Made by a program: the position numbers and the translations under genes. The notes beneath the pieces are model-generated. The model was not told where the DNA came from. It worked only from the letters and a program-made list of their open reading frames with translations, and did no database searches. A DNA stretch of 33,069 nt from Gammaproteobacteria bacterium (GTDB lineage: Bacteria; Pseudomonadota; Gammaproteobacteria; Steroidobacterales; GCA-2729495). The stretch spans positions 1-33,069 of the forward strand of contig QUBU01000025.1 in the NCBI GenBank assembly GCA_014337915.1. The letters run 5' to 3'. Positions 9,967 through 28,093 of the stretch are shown here, piece after piece (position 1 is the first letter of the stretch; each line of letters starts with the position of its first letter).

Positions 9967-11976
9967 TCACTGCCTGCTCTCCCCTGGCTGCCAGATGAGC
10001 GTGGCCGCGTAGCTGCGGCCCGATTCCGGAAAGCCCTCGTCGTAATAATAGAGCCGGTCGCCCAGGTTCTGGCCCTCGACCAGCAGGCGCAGGCCACCGC
10101 CGAGGTCGAAGTCGAAGCCCGCCTCGAAGACGCCGAAGCCGGGCGTGGAACGGCTGCCGTTGCTGGTGCTGAGCCGGCCGTCCTCGGCCTTGAAACCGAG
10201 CCGCAGGCGGACGCGCGTGCCGAGCGCGGTCTCGCTCGCCAGCAGCAGCTTGTTGCGTGGCGTGTAGAGCGCCTGCACCTGGGGCTGCGAGAGATTGTCC
10301 ACGTCGACCAGGCTCCAGCCGAGGCCGAGCTCGCCGACCACGGGAAACGCCCGCGCCAGTGAAAGCTCGAAGCCCCGCCGGCGCTGGCGACCGACGTTTT
10401 GCAGCTGCGAGCAGGGCGGCGAAGTGCAGGCTGTGGCAGGCAGGCTCACGCTGCTGATGGCGTCGTCCAGCCAGCTGCCAAACACCGCAAACCGCGCGCT
10501 CGCGCCGGCCAGGCCGCCATCGACACCGATGTCCACATGGTCGGCCTGCTCCGCCTGCAGGCCCGGGTTGGGCAGCGCAGTGCCGAGACGATAGGAGTAG
10601 CGGTCCTTGAGCGTCGGGAAGCGGGTCTTGTGCGCCAGGTTGAGTCCGAAATTCCAGCCAGGCGTGAATCCCCAGCGCAGGCCGGCGGTGGCATTGATGG
10701 CGGCGTCGTCCTCGAGCGGAAACGGCGTGATGACGCCATTGACGTTGTTGTCGGCACGCCGGGCATCCAGGGCATTCCAGCCGAGGCCGAGGCTGCCGGT
10801 CACGCTCCCGCCCAACGCGCGGGTATGCTCCACGGCCAGCGACCAGCTGCGGTCCTCCATCTCCTCCGGTGGTTGCCCGGCGTCGTCCACCTCGCGATGC
10901 ACGTCGTCCTTGAAGTGGAGTACCGCGCGCGTTACGCCGGCTGCGCCGCCGGGAGAGAATTCGGCCTCGATGCTGCCACCATAGCTGTAGTCGTCGTAGT
11001 TGCTGTCGAAGGCATACGGCCGGTTCTGGGTGTCGTAGTTTGCGTTGTCATAGGACTGGATGCGGTTCTCGAAGCTGTCGTAATAGATGCGGGAGCGCAG
11101 CCAGAAGCCATCACTGACCGGCAACGCGCCGAGCAGGTAGACGTCCTCCTTGTCGTAGTACGGCCAGCGCCAGTACCGCGGGCGTACCTCCGTGGAAGTA
11201 CCTGCGTAGGGGGGTGTCCCCTTCCTGCCATCGAGGCGCGTGTAGTTGAGCTGCCACTGCGCGCCGCTGTCGCCCAGCCAGCCGAGCCTCACGCCAGTGG
11301 TCAGGTCACGGCTGTAGGAGTTCTCGCGCCGGCCGCCGTCTTCTGCCGGGCCGTACACCGCATCGGGTATGCGAAAGAAGTCCTGGTCCCGCAGGAAGGC
11401 CGAACCCTGCACATACCAGTTGCTGCCGCGGTAACCGACGCGGCCGCCTACATCGCTACGCTGCGAATCCCGGCTGTCGTCCGCCACCAGGCCCGCGCGC
11501 AGGCTGCTGGTGAACCCCGCGGCAGGCAGCGCGGTGACGACGTTGATGGCGCCGCCCAGCGCATTGGGTCCGTAAAGCACCGAGCCACCGGATTTGCTGA
11601 CGCGGATCTCGCTCACGTCGCCGACACCGAGGCGACCCAGGTCGATGTTGCCGTCATAGGGCACATAGACCGGTACACCGTCGATGAACAGCGGCACCTG
11701 GCGCGAGTCGTAGCCACGCAGCTGGATCAACGCCTCATTGCGACCGCCCACCCGCGTGACCGTGACGGCTGGCAGCAGGTCCAGGGCATCGGCCAGGTCG
11801 CGCCGGGCGGCGGAGTCGAGCTGCGGCGCCTCGATCAGGTCGGTCGGCAGCTGGCTCCCGGCTTCACGGTACGCGATGACTTCGACGACGCCGAGTTCGG
11901 CATCGGCGACGGCCGCGGTGGCGGCCGCCAGCAGGGCCGCCGCGCAGGCCAGGTGGTTTCGGGAACGGTTCTGCAT
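9967..11976 (-). CDS. TonB-dependent outer-membrane receptor, ModE-linked (putative molybdate/tungstate uptake)
   Basis: 669 residues with a signal peptide, an early TonB-box-like stretch (LGVVEVIAY), a plug domain (LADALDLLPAVTVTRVGG, IQLRGYDSRQVPLFIDGVPV, VLYGPNALGGAINVVT), and a beta-barrel ending in YAATLIWQPGESRQ. It is a small member, similar in size to vitamin B12- and catecholate-type receptors. The ATG at 11976 has GGAG six bases upstream. Its promoter region carries a strong ModE-type operator (12014-12037), and modA is immediately upstream on the same strand. This implies a role in molybdate, tungstate or metal-chelate uptake (inference). Cobalamin is less likely: only 92 bases separate it from modA, too few for a cobalamin riboswitch. 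Confidence 0.9.
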   Translation of the reverse strand: MQNRSRNHLACAAALLAAATAAVADAELGVVEVIAYREAGSQLPTDLIEAPQLDSAARRDLADALDLLPAVTVTRVGGRNEALIQLRGYDSRQVPLFIDGVPVYVPYDGNIDLGRLGVGDVSEIRVSKSGGSVLYGPNALGGAINVVTALPAAGFTSSLRAGLVADDSRDSQRSDVGGRVGYRGSNWYVQGSAFLRDQDFFRIPDAVYGPAEDGGRRENSYSRDLTTGVRLGWLGDSGAQWQLNYTRLDGRKGTPPYAGTSTEVRPRYWRWPYYDKEDVYLLGALPVSDGFWLRSRIYYDSFENRIQSYDNANYDTQNRPYAFDSNYDDYSYGGSIEAEFSPGGAAGVTRAVLHFKDDVHREVDDAGQPPEEMEDRSWSLAVEHTRALGGSVTGSLGLGWNALDARRADNNVNGVITPFPLEDDAAINATAGLRWGFTPGWNFGLNLAHKTRFPTLKDRYSYRLGTALPNPGLQAEQADHVDIGVDGGLAGASARFAVFGSWLDDAISSVSLPATACTSPPCSQLQNVGRQRRRGFELSLARAFPVVGELGLGWSLVDVDNLSQPQVQALYTPRNKLLLASETALGTRVRLRLGFKAEDGRLSTSNGSRSTPGFGVFEAGFDFDLGGGLRLLVEGQNLGDRLYYYDEGFPESGRSYAATLIWQPGESRQ

Positions 11977-12013
11977 GCATGACTCCGACAGGAATGTTGG
12001 CCAGGTGATGACT

Positions 12014-12037
12014 CGGTATATTTGTTTGTATATAGCG
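12014..12037 (-). promoter_or_regulatory. ModE-type operator before the TonB receptor gene
   Basis: On the plus strand CGGTATAT, eight bases, ATATAGCG. On the minus strand the left half extends to ATCGCTATATA, identical to the left half of the E. coli ModE consensus as I recall it, and the right half (ATATACCGA) is close to it. It is 38 bases upstream of the receptor's start codon, overlapping the likely promoter, so molybdate-loaded regulator would be expected to repress. Confidence 0.85.
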
Positions 12038-12068
12038 ATAGCCGGACGCAGGCGGTGGACGGGCCTGC

Positions 12069-12875
12069 CTAGCGGCCCTGCTTCAGTACCGTGAACCCAG
12101 CGGTGGTGAAGATGACTCCCGCCTCGGGCCCCGCCAGCCAGGCAAGGAACGCGGCGGCGGCCGGGCTGGCACCGCGGACCAGCGCCGCCGGGTAGACGAT
12201 CGGCGCGTGACTTTCCGGGGGAAACGTGGCGACCACGCGTACCCGTGGTTCGACCGCGGCATCGGTGGCGTAGACGACACCCAGGGGCGCCTCGCCCCGC
12301 GCGACGAAGGCCAGCGCTGCCCGCACGTTCTCGGCAGGCACCGTGCGATTCTCGACCGCCTGCCAGGCGCCCAGCGCCTGCAAGGCGGCCACGGCATAAC
12401 GCCCTGCGGGAACACCCTCCGGCTCGGCAATCGCCAGGCGTCCGCCGCTGCCCAGCGCCGCGGCAAGGTCGACGCCAGGCCGCAGGTCCACAACGACCCT
12501 GCTGCCGGCTGGCGCCACCAGCACCAGGCGGTTGCCCAGCAGGTCGCGACGGCTGGTGGCCTGCACGAGGCCACGCTCCTCGAGGTAGTCCATCCAGGCG
12601 CTGTCCGCGGAGATGAACAGGTCCGCTGCGGCACCGGACTCGATCTGCCTCGCAAGCACGGAACTCGCCGCGACCGAGAGCTTCACGGTCACGCCCTGTG
12701 CGGCCTCGTAGCCGCGGGCGCTCTCACCCAGCGACTCGGTGAGCGAAGCCGCCGCAAATACCGTGATGACCGGCCGGGCCGCTGTGGCTGGATGCGCCTG
12801 GGCCAGGCCAGCCAGCGTTCCGGCAAGCAGCACCAGCAGGCTGGCGACACGGCGTCTCATGGGGGAGCTTTTCAT
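12069..12875 (-). CDS. modA: molybdate ABC transporter, periplasmic binding protein
   Basis: ModA captures molybdate or tungstate in the periplasm and delivers it to ModBC. The protein has a signal peptide (RRRVASLLVLLAGTLAGLAQAHPATAA) and the family start ITVFAAASLTESLGE, in which Ser residues bind the oxyanion. SVAASSVLARQIESGAAADLFISAD follows, with SPAAAAFLAWLAGPEAGVIF near the C-terminus. The ATG at 12875 is chosen; a second in-frame ATG at 12860 would also give a good signal peptide. Neither has a Shine-Dalgarno sequence. The ModE-type operator is only 5 bases upstream of the first ATG, so the transcript may be leaderless or nearly so. Confidence 0.95.
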   Translation of the reverse strand: MKSSPMRRRVASLLVLLAGTLAGLAQAHPATAARPVITVFAAASLTESLGESARGYEAAQGVTVKLSVAASSVLARQIESGAAADLFISADSAWMDYLEERGLVQATSRRDLLGNRLVLVAPAGSRVVVDLRPGVDLAAALGSGGRLAIAEPEGVPAGRYAVAALQALGAWQAVENRTVPAENVRAALAFVARGEAPLGVVYATDAAVEPRVRVVATFPPESHAPIVYPAALVRGASPAAAAFLAWLAGPEAGVIFTTAGFTVLKQGR

Positions 12876-12880
12876 GGCTG

Positions 12881-12904
12881 CGCTATATCCTGATGGATAT
12901 AGAG
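12881..12904. promoter_or_regulatory. ModE-type operator between modA and modE
   Basis: CGCTATAT, eight bases, ATATAGAG, with a perfect 8-bp inner inverted repeat CTATATCC-TGAT-GGATATAG (12883-12902). It lies in the divergent region between modA (minus) and modE (plus) and is placed to control both. Confidence 0.9.
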
Positions 12905-12989
12905 CCTAATGGCCAGGGCGGGACCAGGCGATGACTTTTCGCAGGTCCACGCTAAGATCGCCGGGGTCGGGTCAGCATCGCGAGGGATC

Positions 12990-13439
12990 ATGGTCAACGT
13001 CCGCTTCCGGCTGGATTTCGCGCCCGGCGCGTCGGTGGGTCCCGGCAAGATCGACCTGCTGGCCGCCATCGACGCGGAGGGTTCGCTCTCGGCGGCGGCA
13101 CGCAGCGTCGGCATGAGCTACCGGCGCGCCTGGCTGCTGCTCGACAGCCTCAACGCCAGCTTCGACAGCCCGGTCACCCGTGCCAGCGTCGGCGGCCGCG
13201 GTGGCGGCGGTGTCCTGCTCACGCCTTTCGGCCGTGAACTGGTACGCCACTATCGCGAATTCGCCGCTGAGCTGGACGCACTCGCCAGCCGCCGCTGGGG
13301 CCGGATCGCCGTCCGCCATGGCGGCCCGCCGCGGCCTGCGCGCGGCAAGGGCACGGCACGCGGACCCACGCTGTCCACCGGCGTCACGGCCGTGGCGCGC
13401 CGGGGCCGTGGGCGCAAGCCCGCAGCGAAACAGCCTTGA
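12990..13439 (+). CDS. modE: one-domain ModE-type transcriptional regulator
   Basis: 149 residues from the ATG at 12990 (GAGGG four bases upstream); an upstream in-frame start at 12909 adds unrelated residues. The N-terminal 100 residues are the ModE winged-helix domain: GKIDLLAAIDAEGSLSAAAR, SYRRAWLLLDSLN (recognition helix region about 32-54), a Gly-rich wing (GGRGGGG) and LTPFGRELVRHYREF. Two-domain ModE proteins of about 260 residues also have paired Mop/TOBE domains that bind molybdate; these are missing here. A short basic tail (RRGRGRKPAAKQP) replaces them. Its last 56 bases overlap the 3' end of modC on the other strand. The three nearby ModE-type operators are its probable targets. 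How it senses molybdate is unclear. Confidence 0.88.
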   Translation: MVNVRFRLDFAPGASVGPGKIDLLAAIDAEGSLSAAARSVGMSYRRAWLLLDSLNASFDSPVTRASVGGRGGGGVLLTPFGRELVRHYREFAAELDALASRRWGRIAVRHGGPPRPARGKGTARGPTLSTGVTAVARRGRGRKPAAKQP

Positions 13440-14484
13440 CCAGCGCCCAGGCAGGCATGCCAGGAGCGAGGCCGAGTTCGGCCGCGGCCAGGGCCGTCAC
13501 CCGCGCCAGCACGATGACGCCACCGACATCCAGGCTCACCAGCCGCGAGTGAGGCGACTCGACATCCACGGCGGTCACCGTGCCGGCCAGCGCATTGCGT
13601 ACGCTCAGGCCCTGCGGCGGCTGCGTCGCCACGATCACTTCGCGCGCCAGCAGCTGCAGCCGCACCGCCATGCCCGGTGCCAGGCCCGCCGCGGGAACGC
13701 GCAGCCTGCCGGTGCCGGCACTGACAGTGGCGAGCCCGGTAGCGGCGTCCACCGCGGTGACCGTCGAGTCGAGCACCGCGCCGACGGCGGCCTCCCCGGC
13801 CAGCCGGCCCAGTGCCGGCTGCAGGACCACCTCGGCCAGCGGGCCGGCGGCTGCGACCCGGCCCTGCTCCATCAGCACGACATGGGTGGCGAGGCGCAGC
13901 ACCTCGTCGAGCTGGTGGCTGACGTAGAGCATCGGCAGGCGCCAGTGGTCGCGCAGCCGCTCAAGGTACGGCAGCACTTCCTCGCGGCGCGCGACATCCA
14001 GCGAAGCCAGTGGCTCGTCGAGCAGCAGCAGCCGCGGCTGCGCCAGCAGCGCCCGGCCCAGCGCTACGCGCTGGCGCTCCCCGCCTGACAGGCCGCGGGG
14101 CCGGCGTTCGAGCAGCGGGCCGAGGCCGAGCAGCGCGACGACATCATCGAAACCGATGCGCACCGCGGCGTGCTGGCGCCGCAGGCCGAACTCGAGGTTG
14201 CCGCGCACGTCGAGGTGCGGGAACAGCCGCGCGTCCTGGAACACATAGCCGAGGCGCCGCTGCTCGGCAGGCAGGTCGATGCCGGTCGCGGCATCGAACA
14301 GCAGTTCGCCATCGAGGCTGATACGGCCGGCATCGGGACGCAGCAGCCCGGCCACCGCATTGACCAGGCTGGTCTTGCCCGAGCCCGAGGCGCCGAACAG
14401 CGCCACCAGCGCCGGCGCCGGCGCGGCGAAGGCCGCGTCGAGCATGAACTCACCCAGGCGGCACTGGACGGAAACGTCGAGCAT
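13384..14484 (-). CDS. modC: molybdate ABC transporter, ATP-binding protein
   Basis: ModC energises molybdate import through ModB. The 366 residues contain Walker A GASGSGKTS (31-39), the signature LSGGERQRV (132-140), Walker B LLLLDEP (152-158), and the switch histidine His190 in YVSHQLDEV. A C-terminal region holds a Mop/TOBE domain (about 293-355, SVRNALAGTVTAV...GMPAWALVKAVSL) that can bind molybdate in this family. The start codon follows the modB stop directly (TGA then ATG), showing translational coupling. The final 18 codons are antisense to the end of modE; the last residues (RACAHGPGAPRP) look like extra tail. Confidence 0.95.
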   Translation of the reverse strand: MLDVSVQCRLGEFMLDAAFAAPAPALVALFGASGSGKTSLVNAVAGLLRPDAGRISLDGELLFDAATGIDLPAEQRRLGYVFQDARLFPHLDVRGNLEFGLRRQHAAVRIGFDDVVALLGLGPLLERRPRGLSGGERQRVALGRALLAQPRLLLLDEPLASLDVARREEVLPYLERLRDHWRLPMLYVSHQLDEVLRLATHVVLMEQGRVAAAGPLAEVVLQPALGRLAGEAAVGAVLDSTVTAVDAATGLATVSAGTGRLRVPAAGLAPGMAVRLQLLAREVIVATQPPQGLSVRNALAGTVTAVDVESPHSRLVSLDVGGVIVLARVTALAAAELGLAPGMPAWALVKAVSLRACAHGPGAPRP

Positions 14485-15171
14485 TCAGGGCCCCAGCAGC
14501 GCCCGCACGCGGCGCGCCAGCAGCTCGGCCAGTGCCAGGCCGGCGAAGCCCAGCGCAAAGGACAGCGCCGCGAGCCTTGCCGCCACCGCATCACCACCCG
14601 GCATCTGCAATGCCGTGTAGAGGGCCAGCGGCAGCGTGCGCGTCTCGCCGGGGATGTTGGACACGAAGGTGATCACCGCGCCGAATTCGCCAAGGCTGGC
14701 AGCGAAGGCGGTCACGGCGCCGGCCAGGATGCCGGGCAGCATCAGCGGCAGCGTGACACTGCGGAAGCGGTCGAAGGCCCCCGCTCCCAGCGTGCGGGCC
14801 GCGTCCTCCAGGCCCGGATCGATGTGCTCCAGCGAGACGCGGATGGCCCGCACCATGAGCGGGAAGGACATCACCGCGGTGGCCAGCGCGGCACCCGAGC
14901 GGCTGAACACCAGCTGCAGGCCGAACTGCTCATGCAGCCAGCCGCCGATCGGCCCGCGGTTGCCAAATAGCACCAGCAGCAGGTACCCCACTGCCACCGG
15001 CGGCAGCACCAGTGGCAGGTGCACGAAGGCGTCGAGCAAGGCGCGACCGGCAAAGCGCCCGCGCGCCAGCACCCAGGCCACGGCAATGGCCAGGGGCAGG
15101 CTGAAGAGGACGCTGCGGGTGGCCACGGCGAGGCTCAGCCCGAGCGCCTGCCACTCCATTTCGGTGAGCAC
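14485..15171 (-). CDS. modB: molybdate ABC transporter, permease
   Basis: Inner-membrane channel of the molybdate importer. From GTG at 15171 (GGGGTGA just upstream) it has 228 residues, a normal length, and begins like other ModB proteins (LTEMEWQALGLSLAVATRS). Several hydrophobic helices are visible, and the cytoplasmic coupling (EAA-type) loop is EDAARTLGAGAFDRFRSVTL followed by PLMLPGI. Alternatives are TTG at 15186 and ATG at 15159. modC follows without a gap. A ModE-type operator lies 17 bases upstream, so modBC is probably transcribed separately from modA. Confidence 0.94.
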   Translation of the reverse strand: MLTEMEWQALGLSLAVATRSVLFSLPLAIAVAWVLARGRFAGRALLDAFVHLPLVLPPVAVGYLLLVLFGNRGPIGGWLHEQFGLQLVFSRSGAALATAVMSFPLMVRAIRVSLEHIDPGLEDAARTLGAGAFDRFRSVTLPLMLPGILAGAVTAFAASLGEFGAVITFVSNIPGETRTLPLALYTALQMPGGDAVAARLAALSFALGFAGLALAELLARRVRALLGP

Positions 15172-15187
15172 AGGGTCACCCCGCAAG

Positions 15188-15211
15188 CGCTATATTGACC
15201 GCAGCATAGCG
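15188..15211 (-). promoter_or_regulatory. ModE-type operator before modBC
   Basis: CGCTATAT, eight bases, GCATAGCG, with outer 6-bp arms CGCTAT/ATAGCG forming a perfect inverted repeat. It has the same 24-bp length as the other two ModE-type sites and lies between the sulfatase stop and modB. It is the weakest of the three because the right half lacks TATAT. Confidence 0.75.
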
Positions 15212-15253
15212 GGCTGCCCCGGGGCAAGGAAGCCGCGCGACGGCGCGACCCGC

Positions 15254-19801: not shown

Positions 19802-19816
19802 GGCCGCCGGCCTCAG
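19798..19816. terminator. palindrome spanning two convergent stop codons
   Basis: CTGAGGCC-GCC-GGCCTCAG is a perfect 8-bp stem with a 3-base loop. It contains the TGA of the Sel1 gene and, on the other strand, the TGA of the LuxR-type gene. No T-run follows, so it is more likely a barrier or RNA 3'-end stabiliser than a full terminator. Confidence 0.6.
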
Positions 19817-20991
19817 GGATCCGCTGCCGGCACCGCGGTGCCGTGCCCGGAAGTCATCCATAGCGCATTCGCCAGCTTGCGGATCAGCTGCGCCTGGCTG
19901 GACACCCCGAACTTGGCATAGATGCTTTTCAGGTGGCTGCGCACGGTCTGGTCTGCCAGTCCCAGCCGGAGCGCTGCATCGGTCACCGAGCCGGTACCGT
20001 AGAGGGCCTCGCAGATCCGTTGTTCCGCCGGCGTCAGCCGGTAGAGCCAGGCCAGGCGTTCACCGGGCAGGATGCGCGGCCTGCCTATATCCTGGATCAG
20101 CAGCAGCGCAGCGGCACCCTCCGGCAGCAGTGCGCGGTCAGCGGCGCTGTTGCAGGCAATCACCGACAAAGCCAGCGGCGTGGCCGTTTTGCGCCGTAGC
20201 ACACGGATCACCCTCGGCACCGAAGCGGCATCGCCAGGCGCAGCGGTCATTGCCAGGCGCAGCGCCTGCCTGAACTCCGTCTCCACGGCGTTCGAACCGA
20301 ACCACAGCTGGCCCTGCCGCAGCCCGACGCCATCCTCGCTGTCGAGGATGGCCTGCGCCAGCGGGTTGCAGTGCAGGCTGCGAGCGGCACGGTCCAGCAC
20401 CACGATGGCCTGCCCGGTGCGGTCGAACCATGTCAGCGCCCGGCGGCGCCCGGCATCGCCCAGCGTGAGCCGATCCTCCAGTTCCCGGACAACCCTCAGG
20501 TGCCCCAGCGCTTCGCGCATCAGCGCCACCTCGGCATCGCTGAAATCACGGTCGGCGCGCGTGACACCAACATTGGCGAACAGCTGGGGCTGGTTCTCCA
20601 TCACCGCCAGCAGCGCAAACTGCATGCCGGCAGGCAGCGCCACGCGCCGGTAGAGTGAATTCGCCTGCAGCTCCGCGGCGGGGATGGCATCGGTGGAGCG
20701 AAAAACGGCGCCGGCCGGGCGTGCGAGCAATTCACGCCAGATCAGGTCTTCGGCCAGGTCGCTTCGCGCCATGGCTGGCAGGTATTTCAGGTCGATGCCA
20801 TGCACCAGGAAAACGGAGTTCCGCGGATGAACGCGATCGAGGCGTGCATGGACGCCTGCCGTACCGCCGACCATCGGCACCAGGATCGCCAGGATGCGCC
20901 GCCAGGCATCGGGCTCCAGGGTCGCCCGATAGAGGTCCATCACGGCCGCTTCCGGCAACAGGCCAGTCTCAGCTGCTGGCATGGACGTCAT
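19813..20991 (-). CDS. LuxR-type transcriptional regulator, second of a tandem pair
   Basis: 392 residues. The C-terminus is a LuxR/GerE helix-turn-helix: LTPAEQRICEALYGTGS, then ALRLGLADQTVRSHLKSIYAKFGVSSQAQLIRKLA. The N-terminal 300 residues have no domain I can name with certainty; the middle (GQAIVVLDRAARSLHCNPLAQAIL) looks PAS-like and could bind a small ligand. There is no receiver domain and no clear autoinducer domain. It is a paralogue of the gene directly upstream, which has the same length, the same start (LYRATLEPDAWRRIL against IYAATLRPDFWTRVM) and a near-identical recognition helix. Its ATG at 20991 overlaps the end of that gene by 23 bases, so the two are translated together; an ATG at 20982 is an alternative. 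Confidence 0.88.
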   Translation of the reverse strand: MTSMPAAETGLLPEAAVMDLYRATLEPDAWRRILAILVPMVGGTAGVHARLDRVHPRNSVFLVHGIDLKYLPAMARSDLAEDLIWRELLARPAGAVFRSTDAIPAAELQANSLYRRVALPAGMQFALLAVMENQPQLFANVGVTRADRDFSDAEVALMREALGHLRVVRELEDRLTLGDAGRRRALTWFDRTGQAIVVLDRAARSLHCNPLAQAILDSEDGVGLRQGQLWFGSNAVETEFRQALRLAMTAAPGDAASVPRVIRVLRRKTATPLALSVIACNSAADRALLPEGAAALLLIQDIGRPRILPGERLAWLYRLTPAEQRICEALYGTGSVTDAALRLGLADQTVRSHLKSIYAKFGVSSQAQLIRKLANALWMTSGHGTAVPAADP

Positions 20992-22180
20992 TTCCAGGCG
21001 GCAGCATGTGCAGTGAATGTGCCAGCTGCTGCTGCAATTGCGCCTGGTTCACGACACCGAACTTGCCGTAGATGCTCTTGAGGTGGCTGCGCACCGTGTG
21101 GCGCGACAGGCCGAGCGCCTCGGCTGCAGTGTCGACGTCGGCGCTGCGGAACAGGGCCTCGCAGACGCGCAGTTCCGCGGCAGTCAGCCGGTAGATGCGT
21201 TCCAGCCAGGCGACCGGCAGATCGTATTGGCGGCTCGCATCGAAGAACATCACCAGGCAACCGGCCCCCGGGGGAAATACCGCGCGATCGGCAGGCAGGA
21301 CACAGGGCATCAGACTCAGCGCCAGCGGTGCCACAGTCGCGACCTGCGAGAGGCGCAGGTCGATGTGCATTGGCGGCATGGCGCTGTCTGCGTCCGCTGC
21401 CACGACCTGGCGCAGGCCGTGCTCGAATTCCGCCTGCGTGGCGAGGCTGTCGAACAGGAAGCGGCCGTTCTTGAGGGCGATACCGTCCACGCGCGCGAGC
21501 CAACGCTCCGCAGTCCGGTTGACGTGGATGGCGTAGCCGCTGCGGTCGAGCACCACCAGTGCCTGGCCTGCGCGGTCGATGCTCAGTAGCGCTTCCTGAC
21601 GGGCAGCATCGCCGAGCATGACGCGCCTGGCCAGCGCTGTCGCGACCTGCAGGTGCGGCACGAGCGCGGAGAGCAGCGCCAGTTCCGCATCGGTAAAGTC
21701 ACCGTCCGCGTCACCTCGCAGGAAGCCGATGCTTTTATGAACCTCCGGTCCCGACTCCAGGACGGCATGGATGAAGTATCCGAGCCCCTCGGGGCCAGCC
21801 AGCTGCTGATACAGGGGACCGCGCTCTGCGGCTTCGAGTGAAACGAGGTCGGCGGTGCGACAGACCGTACCGGCCGGCAGCCAGCGTGCCGCCTGCCAGA
21901 TGCGATCCTCGGTGACGTCGCGCCCGCGCAGCAGGACGGCAGCCTGTGGCGAGAAGCCTATGGTCTCCGTGAACGAGTCGCAGGGATGATCACGATCGAT
22001 GCCAGCCGCCAGGGCCTTCTCGCAGCCCAGCAGCGGCGCGACCAGTGTCATGACCCTGGTCCAGAAATCCGGCCTGAGCGTGGCGGCGTAAATCTGCTGG
22101 AGCACGTCGGCAGGAAGGGCAATGCCAGCCCTGCTGCTGGCTGCTCCTGTAATGTTCTCCGGCCGCACCTGGCGGTGCAT
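20969..22180 (-). CDS. LuxR-type transcriptional regulator, first of a tandem pair
   Basis: 403 residues from the ATG at 22180, which is six bases after GGGAGG; a GTG at 22183 is also in frame. The layout is like its downstream paralogue: an N-terminal helical region (LPADVLQQIYAATLRPDFW), a middle PAS-like part (GQALVVLDRSGYAIHVNRTAERWLA), and a C-terminal LuxR HTH (LTAAELRVCEALFRSADVD, LGLSRHTVRSHLKSIYGKFGVVNQAQL). The recognition helix TVRSHLKSIY is shared exactly by the pair, so they may bind the same site, perhaps as heterodimers. Two related palindromes upstream (22258-22277 and 22304-22324) are candidate operators. Target genes and ligand are unknown; no metabolic gene set adjoins it. 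Confidence 0.88.
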   Translation of the reverse strand: MHRQVRPENITGAASSRAGIALPADVLQQIYAATLRPDFWTRVMTLVAPLLGCEKALAAGIDRDHPCDSFTETIGFSPQAAVLLRGRDVTEDRIWQAARWLPAGTVCRTADLVSLEAAERGPLYQQLAGPEGLGYFIHAVLESGPEVHKSIGFLRGDADGDFTDAELALLSALVPHLQVATALARRVMLGDAARQEALLSIDRAGQALVVLDRSGYAIHVNRTAERWLARVDGIALKNGRFLFDSLATQAEFEHGLRQVVAADADSAMPPMHIDLRLSQVATVAPLALSLMPCVLPADRAVFPPGAGCLVMFFDASRQYDLPVAWLERIYRLTAAELRVCEALFRSADVDTAAEALGLSRHTVRSHLKSIYGKFGVVNQAQLQQQLAHSLHMLPPGNDVHASS

Positions 22181-22257
22181 CACGGTCCTCCCTGCAGAAC
22201 AGTGACGGTGCCTTGTTGCGATTATGCCTCAGCAACTGGCCATTGCTGCTGACCAGA

Positions 22258-22543: not shown

Positions 22544-28093
<5,550 letters not shown>

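Follow-up and report, generated by a model that had tools for sequence, protein, structure and literature searches.

Within a 33,069-nucleotide stretch of gammaproteobacterial DNA (the window, by which we mean this stretch at its full length; contig QUBU01000025.1, assembly GCA_014337915.1), the gene next to modA codes for a TonB-dependent receptor (TBDR) that is probably a ModE-controlled, TonB-powered outer-membrane importer of molybdate or tungstate, either free or complexed. In the usual account, molybdate uptake starts at the periplasm, and the outer membrane is a passive sieve through whose pores molybdate enters. An earlier note on this DNA had seen a ModE-type operator on the receptor gene and had proposed a candidate active outer-membrane step for molybdenum (Mo) and tungsten (W). 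We computed the receptor family, the operator and its conservation, and the genomic coupling to Mo genes directly; the occurrence of operator and linkage across the family supports this step as a candidate.

ModE-type operators of the receptor gene and its family

The predicted operator of the receptor gene (12012-12039) deviates at two of the 20 set bases from ATCGNTATATA-N6-TATATANCGAT. The consensus that we scored, ATCGnTATATA-N6-TATATAnCGAT with 20 set bases, has the form of the ModE-site consensus printed in PMC2700814. Not one of 100 shuffles of the window contained any match to this consensus at three or fewer mismatches, and the identical scorer gave 16 for our positive control, the modA operator of Escherichia coli K-12. 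Genome-wide, the core pattern CGNTATATA-N6-TATATANCG has a single occurrence at up to one mismatch, namely the site at 12012-12039, and three places at up to three mismatches (the receptor's site, the gap between modA and modE, and contig 9); as the reversed pattern, used as a control, likewise matched at three places, the receptor's site alone is exceptional by score. It lies beyond the end of modA and is therefore not the promoter of modA itself. The earlier note had ranked it as the best of three such sites in the window, which our scores bear out (18 versus 13 and 13); the two weaker ones, between modA and modE and before modB, are not significant by score alone because 13 recurs elsewhere in the window. 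Sites close to modE score 16, 17 and 15 in the relatives L017, L018 and L019, respectively, and only that of L018 lies in the modA/modE gap.

Other modes of control were considered for the receptor gene. In an Rfam scan of the window, a tRNA alone reached its family threshold; a cobalamin riboswitch or another structured RNA before the receptor was consequently rejected, and the same holds for Fur control, as the gap between receptor and modA has no Fur-like match better than 10/19, a score that 169 of 500 shuffles reached. The absence of both a riboswitch in the gap and a Fur-like site beyond chance agrees with what the earlier note had surmised. A promoter scan of 11900-13050 found no sigma-70-like promoter, so that the operator could not be placed relative to -35/-10 elements.

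Relatives of the receptor were found in 8 of 40 genomes of its own family (E 1e-30), in at least 7 of 369 of its class (E 1e-40) and, with a profile at E 1e-60, in at least 10 of 398 of its phylum, the own genome being included each time; the class and phylum counts are lower bounds, as at most three candidates per genome were scored. Named genomes contributed 32 receptor loci, and a plasmid collection 23 records, eight of which were analysed. Members of the family occur in Pseudomonas, Alloalcanivorax, Halothiobacillus, Thiomicrorhabdus, Sulfuricurvum, E. coli, Proteus, Azospirillum and Methylorubrum, and also in a Chlorobiota, a Fibrobacteres and a Kiritimatiellae genome. The other TBDRs of the own genome are distant: among the 8 of 24 that were compared, matches at E 1e-3 or better were obtained for two, with 3.5e-8 over 96 residues as the strongest. 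We defined 28 receptor clusters at 60% identity, and left L047 (whose receptor frame ends at 542 amino acids) and L020 (a near-copy of L019) out of tree and clusters. As to the locus labels, L009-L016 are shorter stretches of the window and L017-L023 are places; L030, L031 and L058 repeat the contigs of L020, L021 and L018, L029 was treated as a copy of L055, and L024-L028 were replaced by the wider L062-L066, as were L104 and L106-L109 by L111-L115.

Scans of 400 bp ahead of the receptor gave scores of 15 or more for 32 of 42 loci (a redundant set), and each of these scores was reached by none or one of 200 shuffles. The best member attains at least 15/20 in 19 of the 28 clusters, directly before the receptor in 15 and before the first gene of the operon in four; the site of L066 was counted at 16, from a scan of this locus as L026. 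Among 383 other genes in 40 of the loci, which served as a control, four score 15 or more: two modE genes, one gene divergent from modE and one unrelated gene. Of the 14 Pseudomonas-group loci, 13 have a pair of sites that each score 15 or more (the fourteenth has 19 and 14), and the operator-bearing receptors of this group adjoin neither modA nor modE. A fresh test on seven later loci gave two with at least 15, two with 14 and three with no site when 1.5-kb flanks were scanned, and four, two and one, respectively, when the stretches were widened to the operon start; the locus that lacks a site has a receptor of 25% identity without the plug loop. Judged from these sequence data, control of the receptor by its predicted ModE-type site is well supported. 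The search for ModE-regulated or mod-linked receptors in other genomes that the earlier note had suggested did return such receptors, also in Pseudomonas, away from mod genes, and in an operon of E. coli.

Coupling to molybdenum genes

A ModE domain is encoded in all eight receptor loci of the family search (the window's included) and in 13 of the 32 named-genome loci, among them all ten with at least 38% identity. Considering whole genomes other than the plasmid-collection records, 22 of 23 receptor genomes have ModE at E 6e-17 or better. In the class sample without the own genome, ModE (E 1e-14) is present in five of six receptor genomes versus 53 of 362 others (Fisher p = 4e-4). The genomes of L063 and L064 each have ModE; that of L062 (G371) has no convincing ModE (best E 2.4e-8) and no operator. 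In L062 itself, the receptor lies between ModB/ModC-like genes and a PF13343-type binding protein. The L064 locus (G185:C1:18500-37000) clusters matches to ModB, ModC, a luciferase-like monooxygenase, FecCD, an ATPase, a FecB-like protein, the receptor, ModD and ModE, together with two further TBDR-like genes and with no ModE-type site before the family receptor.

Gene order around the receptor varies among the loci, and three kinds of inner partner are encountered. ModABC is found in the window, in L017-L019, in L023 and in the Dokdonella and Lysobacteraceae loci L032 and L033. A FecBCD-type ABC transporter is the second partner, often accompanied by ModD (which passes its NCBIfam cut-off), a methyltransferase, DUF2478 or a luciferase-like monooxygenase. 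The third, a PF13343 binding protein with a di-haem oxidoreductase, occurs in the Pseudomonas group, Azospirillum, L065, L112 and L114; searches with this binding protein and with the luciferase-like neighbours gave no specific substrate. DUF2478 adjoins the receptor in L063, L066 and L115, and on the Methylorubrum plasmid pCMU01 further ModE-type sites lie near a DUF2478 gene (L083:14083-14110, scoring 15, and 12913-12940, scoring 16). A small Oxidored_molyb-domain protein is the neighbour in L022, L023, L056 and a Pseudomonas aeruginosa plasmid, where moaA and nar genes follow nearby. A di-haem oxidoreductase is located near the receptor in the genus relatives L017 and L019, and the 18 kb of the window that were scanned gave no di-haem match. 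The receptor is directly followed by a 175-amino-acid protein without a Pfam match in L017 and L018.

The E. coli operon (L080:2353-8779; L090:3001-9427) has the order binding protein, FecCD permease, ATPase, methyltransferase, ModD and receptor. It was matched in 2102 of 5426 complete E. coli genomes, in 2094 of them over at least 80% of its length, and the type strain ATCC 11775 possesses it; eight of its 2105 places are plasmid-borne. In both records inspected, the type strain's among them, the operon is flanked by treA and ymgE, a place where K-12 has ycgY and lacks the operon. The ModE-type site before it scores 17/20, three further alleles score 16, 17 and 18, and the 181-bp promoter stretch was matched in 2098 E. 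coli genomes; the match of a terminator scan at this position is the ModE-type palindrome itself. By far the best PDB match of the permease is HI1471 of Haemophilus influenzae (222 bits, E 9e-65; the next has 175 bits, E 2e-50). The best match of the binding protein is 4pag (E 6.9e-26; function unnamed), and HI_1472 comes second (E 1.2e-7, residues 214-289 only); it is the third-best PDB match of the binding protein of L063. We take HI1471 to be MolB and HI_1472 to be MolA, in part on the strength of a reference title in PMC10182148.

The receptor, its locus and its possible cargo

The window is contig 28 of 35 in a genome of 2.72 Mb. Its modB, modC, modA and receptor genes are encoded on the minus strand and the gene of the ModE-like regulator on the plus strand (Table 1). 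As stated in the earlier note, the receptor gene adjoins modA: its open reading frame (ORF, 9967-11976) follows downstream on the same strand after a gap of 92 bp. ModA, ModB and ModC each exceed their curated equivalog cut-offs, and all 15 PDB matches of ModA are named as molybdate- or molybdenum-binding or transport proteins. Molybdopterin-type domains are encoded by six genes of the genome (PF00384 in four, MoCoBD_1 in two); one of the PF00384 genes may be NuoG, which needs no Mo. Elsewhere in the window, tandem overlapping ORFs (19813-20991 and 20969-22183) resemble paralogous regulators, the first matching a LuxR-type GerE domain, and 22544-28093 on the minus strand holds, according to Pfam, a fusion of an ArsR-type regulator with a methyltransferase, followed by ORFs that by eye resemble methylenetetrahydrofolate reductase and MetH.

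Table 1. Positions and supporting evidence of the features discussed in the window
Feature	Position	Strand	Basis
TBDR, 669 amino acids, proposed ModE-controlled Mo/W importer	9967..11976	-	ORF and Pfam
Codons of plug loop YVPYDGNID (residues 104-112)	11641..11667	-	Conservation in alignment A1
Putative TonB box region LGVVEVIA (residues 28-35), after probable signal peptide	11872..11895	-	Sequence inspection only
Predicted ModE-type operator of the receptor gene	12012..12039		18/20 versus consensus
modA, molybdate-binding protein	12069..12875	-	TIGR01256, 187.1 bits versus cut-off 62.5
Weaker ModE-type site between modA and modE	12879..12906		13/20; 3 mismatches to core pattern
ModE-like regulator, helix-turn-helix domain only, 149 amino acids	12990..13439	+	TIGR00637, 74.8 bits
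modC with TOBE domain	13384..14484	-	TIGR02142, 435 bits versus 285; PF03459
modB	14485..15186	-	TIGR02141, 215.8 bits versus 182.6
ModE-type site before modB	15186..15213		13/20

The receptor protein has both expected Pfam domains above cut-off (Plug PF07715, 62.7 bits; TonB_dep_Rec_b-barrel PF00593, 75.3 bits), and its AlphaFold2 model attains a predicted local distance difference test (pLDDT) of 82.4 and a predicted template modelling score (pTM) of 0.86. With this predicted model, Foldseek returned FrpB, BtuB and OprC as best matches (E 1e-28 or better) at 14-17% identity, and a single-sequence search of the PDB gave a best E of 1.5e-6. Nineteen NCBIfam models match at E 1e-3, all of them below cut-off (best TIGR01785, 74.4 versus 316.85 bits). 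Close kinship to a characterised receptor was accordingly rejected on the grounds of sequence, profile cut-offs and structure; the clear best match to a receptor for another substrate, which the earlier note had named as fatal to its proposal, was not found in these searches. A signal peptide and a TonB box within residues 1-35 are plausible by eye only; L28 and G29 are invariant in the 27-sequence alignment A1. In the same alignment, residues 104-106 and 108-112 of the plug loop are invariant and residue 107 is nearly so. Conserved residues were related to structure by way of secondary structure and an alignment with BtuB. YVPYDG is kept in 20 of the 28 clusters and the exact YVPYDGNID in 12; other clusters show YVPYDGYVD, YVPYDGNLD, YVPYDGNVD or YVSYDGYVD, a group including alphaproteobacteria shows YLPADN or YLPYDN, and all of these forms are missing from L113. 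The loop aligns with NLAGVSGSAD of BtuB, which we take to be a substrate-contact loop.

From the control and the partners of the receptor, and not from binding, we infer that its cargo would be a Mo or W species. This species might be a secreted or scavenged Mo chelate (a molybdophore, for example a catecholate), with neighbouring proteins (ModD, the methyltransferase, the luciferase-like monooxygenase and the di-haem oxidoreductase) modifying or destroying the ligand so that the metal is released; we give this form of the proposal somewhat less than an even chance. It would suit the general habit of TBDRs, which usually carry large complexes, and FecBCD-type transporters with ModD, a methyltransferase or a monooxygenase recur beside the receptor. 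The own genome moreover has a 2592-amino-acid frame with three condensation domains of nonribosomal peptide synthetases (G000:C22, about 35200-42900); however, the contig of this frame holds none of the 25 TBDR barrel matches and no ModE-type core match at up to three mismatches. MolA of the HI_1472 type is described as binding molybdate itself in PMC10182148, which argues against a chelate, as does the inner step of the window's clade, since ModABC takes the free oxyanion. None of the ten window proteins scanned resembles the product of a chelator gene, the other loci not having been searched for such genes.

Uptake of free molybdate or tungstate, comparable to that of copper by OprC, which is thought to import this metal, would leave the accessory genes to serve other Mo-dependent steps; we consider this form of the proposal possible, with marked reservation. 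ModA and the HI1471-like transporter, the partners in question, handle oxyanions, OprC is among the best structural matches, and the charged barrel residues K356, D358, H360, K457 and D458 are invariant in A1. In the wider set, however, several of these residues are exchanged (K356 to R, D458 to E), the plug loop YVPYDGNID contains no cationic residue, and in the usual view porins suffice for the entry of free molybdate at ordinary concentrations. A cargo of another kind under ModE control (for example molybdopterin itself, an iron-siderophore, or a compound of the haem or corrinoid type, required under Mo scarcity or during the synthesis of molybdoenzymes) appears unlikely to us. In NCBIfam, the receptors come closest to those for siderophores, haem and B12, and the small Oxidored_molyb-domain protein or di-haem proteins adjoin the receptor in some loci; yet the profile matches are all below curated cut-offs, the structural matches show the low identity given above, the receptor-modA gap has no Fur-like site beyond chance, and such a cargo hardly explains the coupling to ModABC, HI1471-like and ModD genes. 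That operator and linkage arose by chance or hitchhiking, the receptor being an ordinary, unrelated TBDR after modA, is very improbable, even if gene order near the receptor varies and some relatives have no site: the shuffled windows, the contrast between 19 of 28 clusters and 4 of 383 control genes, and the sites before Pseudomonas receptors away from mod genes speak against it, and we rejected it on the family-wide counts.

Several findings weigh against a ModE-controlled importer of molybdate or tungstate. Nine of the 28 clusters remain below the operator threshold of 15. Three clusters score 14 (L032/L033/L101, L063/L115 and, at the operon head, L038), the L063/L115 site rising to 15 with a five-base spacer; L044 shows only the five-base-spacer variant (16), and L062, L064, L082, L086 and L113 have no convincing ModE-type site. 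Two of the four members of the Halothiobacillus cluster reach 15. The operon heads were assigned after the whole-locus scans had been seen, and that of L112 is an estimate. Receptor-mod linkage and operator, whose conservation in relatives the earlier note had made its touchstone, do both recur, and it is in these nine clusters that the operator falls short. The regulator of the window, whose start was placed at the onset of its alignment with relatives (residue 28 of a longer ORF for L019 and L021), matches TIGR00637 (E 4.3e-21) below the cut-off of 98.5 bits, and a Pfam scan found no C-terminal molybdate-binding Mop/TOBE domains, for which reason we call it ModE-like. As the sole TOBE match (PF03459) of the genome lies in ModC, Mo sensing in this clade is unexplained. 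Furthermore, PLSDB and RefSeq annotate parts of the E. coli operon as an "iron" transporter, the permease of L063 is nearest to BtuC in NCBIfam (below cut-off), and it is not evident why a bare oxyanion should require a methyltransferase, a luciferase-like monooxygenase or a di-haem protein.

A working model and its place among known systems

For the ModE-controlled Mo/W importer we envisage the following course of events, in which TonB dependence, repression and the order of steps are our deductions. The local ModE-like regulator would control transcription of the receptor gene via 12012-12039, most likely by repression when molybdate is plentiful, and would release the receptor promoter when Mo becomes scarce. 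The receptor would then bind molybdate or tungstate at the cell surface, either free or, slightly more likely, complexed with a small organic ligand, and energy supplied by TonB would drive the Mo or W species into the periplasm. There, ModA would capture the oxyanion and ModBC would carry it on into the cytoplasm; relatives would rely for this inner step on a FecBCD-type transporter close to Haemophilus MolABC, or on an uncharacterised binding protein and a di-haem oxidoreductase. We advance with caution, as a wider proposal that may well not hold in full, that a widespread, undescribed class of TBDRs forms the ModE-switched outer-membrane limb of Mo/W uptake, with ModABC, a MolABC-like system or a binding protein plus di-haem oxidoreductase as inner partner, and that it imports a Mo complex whose ligand is processed by ModD and partner enzymes; roughly two fifths of the complete E. 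coli genomes would possess this class.

Compared with modE-modABC of E. coli K-12, the window shares modA, modB and modC above cut-off and ModE-type operators, whereas it adds a TBDR with an operator of its own and has a regulator reduced to the DNA-binding domain. H. influenzae MolABC (HI1470-HI1472) is the system to which the E. coli-type operon bears likeness, its FecCD permease being closest to HI1471 and its binding protein related to HI_1472, whereas the window uses ModABC. The accessible text of PMC10182148 places MolABC at the inner membrane, with no ModE-controlled TBDR attached to it, and assigns it a lower affinity for molybdate than that of ModABC, MolA binding in the 100-micromolar range. 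OprC (copper), BtuB (cobalamin) and FrpB have the fold of plug and barrel in common with the receptor; the plug-loop sequence of BtuB differs from YVPYDGNID, and OprC is, according to PMC8602904, regulated by CueR and low copper.

The nearest published idea that we found, also in PMC8602904, is the ModA-IcmP route of the P. aeruginosa H2 type VI secretion system (H2-T6SS), which likewise proposes a dedicated outer-membrane route for molybdate. A term search of the main text of a 2024 review of TonB-dependent uptake (PMC11658791) found "molybd", "tungst" and "oxyanion" all absent from that text, and according to PMC2700814 several transport systems belong to the ModE regulon predicted for Geobacter sulfurreducens. 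No description of a ModE-controlled TBDR was found among the best full-text literature matches listed, a search to which most subscription journals and regulon databases were external. Comparative-genomic work on TonB receptors and on ModE reportedly exists and could hold an earlier prediction.

The genes in question are available in genetically tractable hosts, among them plant-associated Pseudomonas and the type strain of E. coli, and the family offers a candidate context for the orphan genes modD, DUF2478 and that of the small Oxidored_molyb protein; ModD would gain a role in ligand processing if a Mo complex is indeed imported. Cognate receptors for true molybdophores would become a testable question. 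If the receptor acts as we propose, it would help to explain competition for Mo where this metal is scarce, and Mo and W would join the metals that are actively taken up across the outer membrane.

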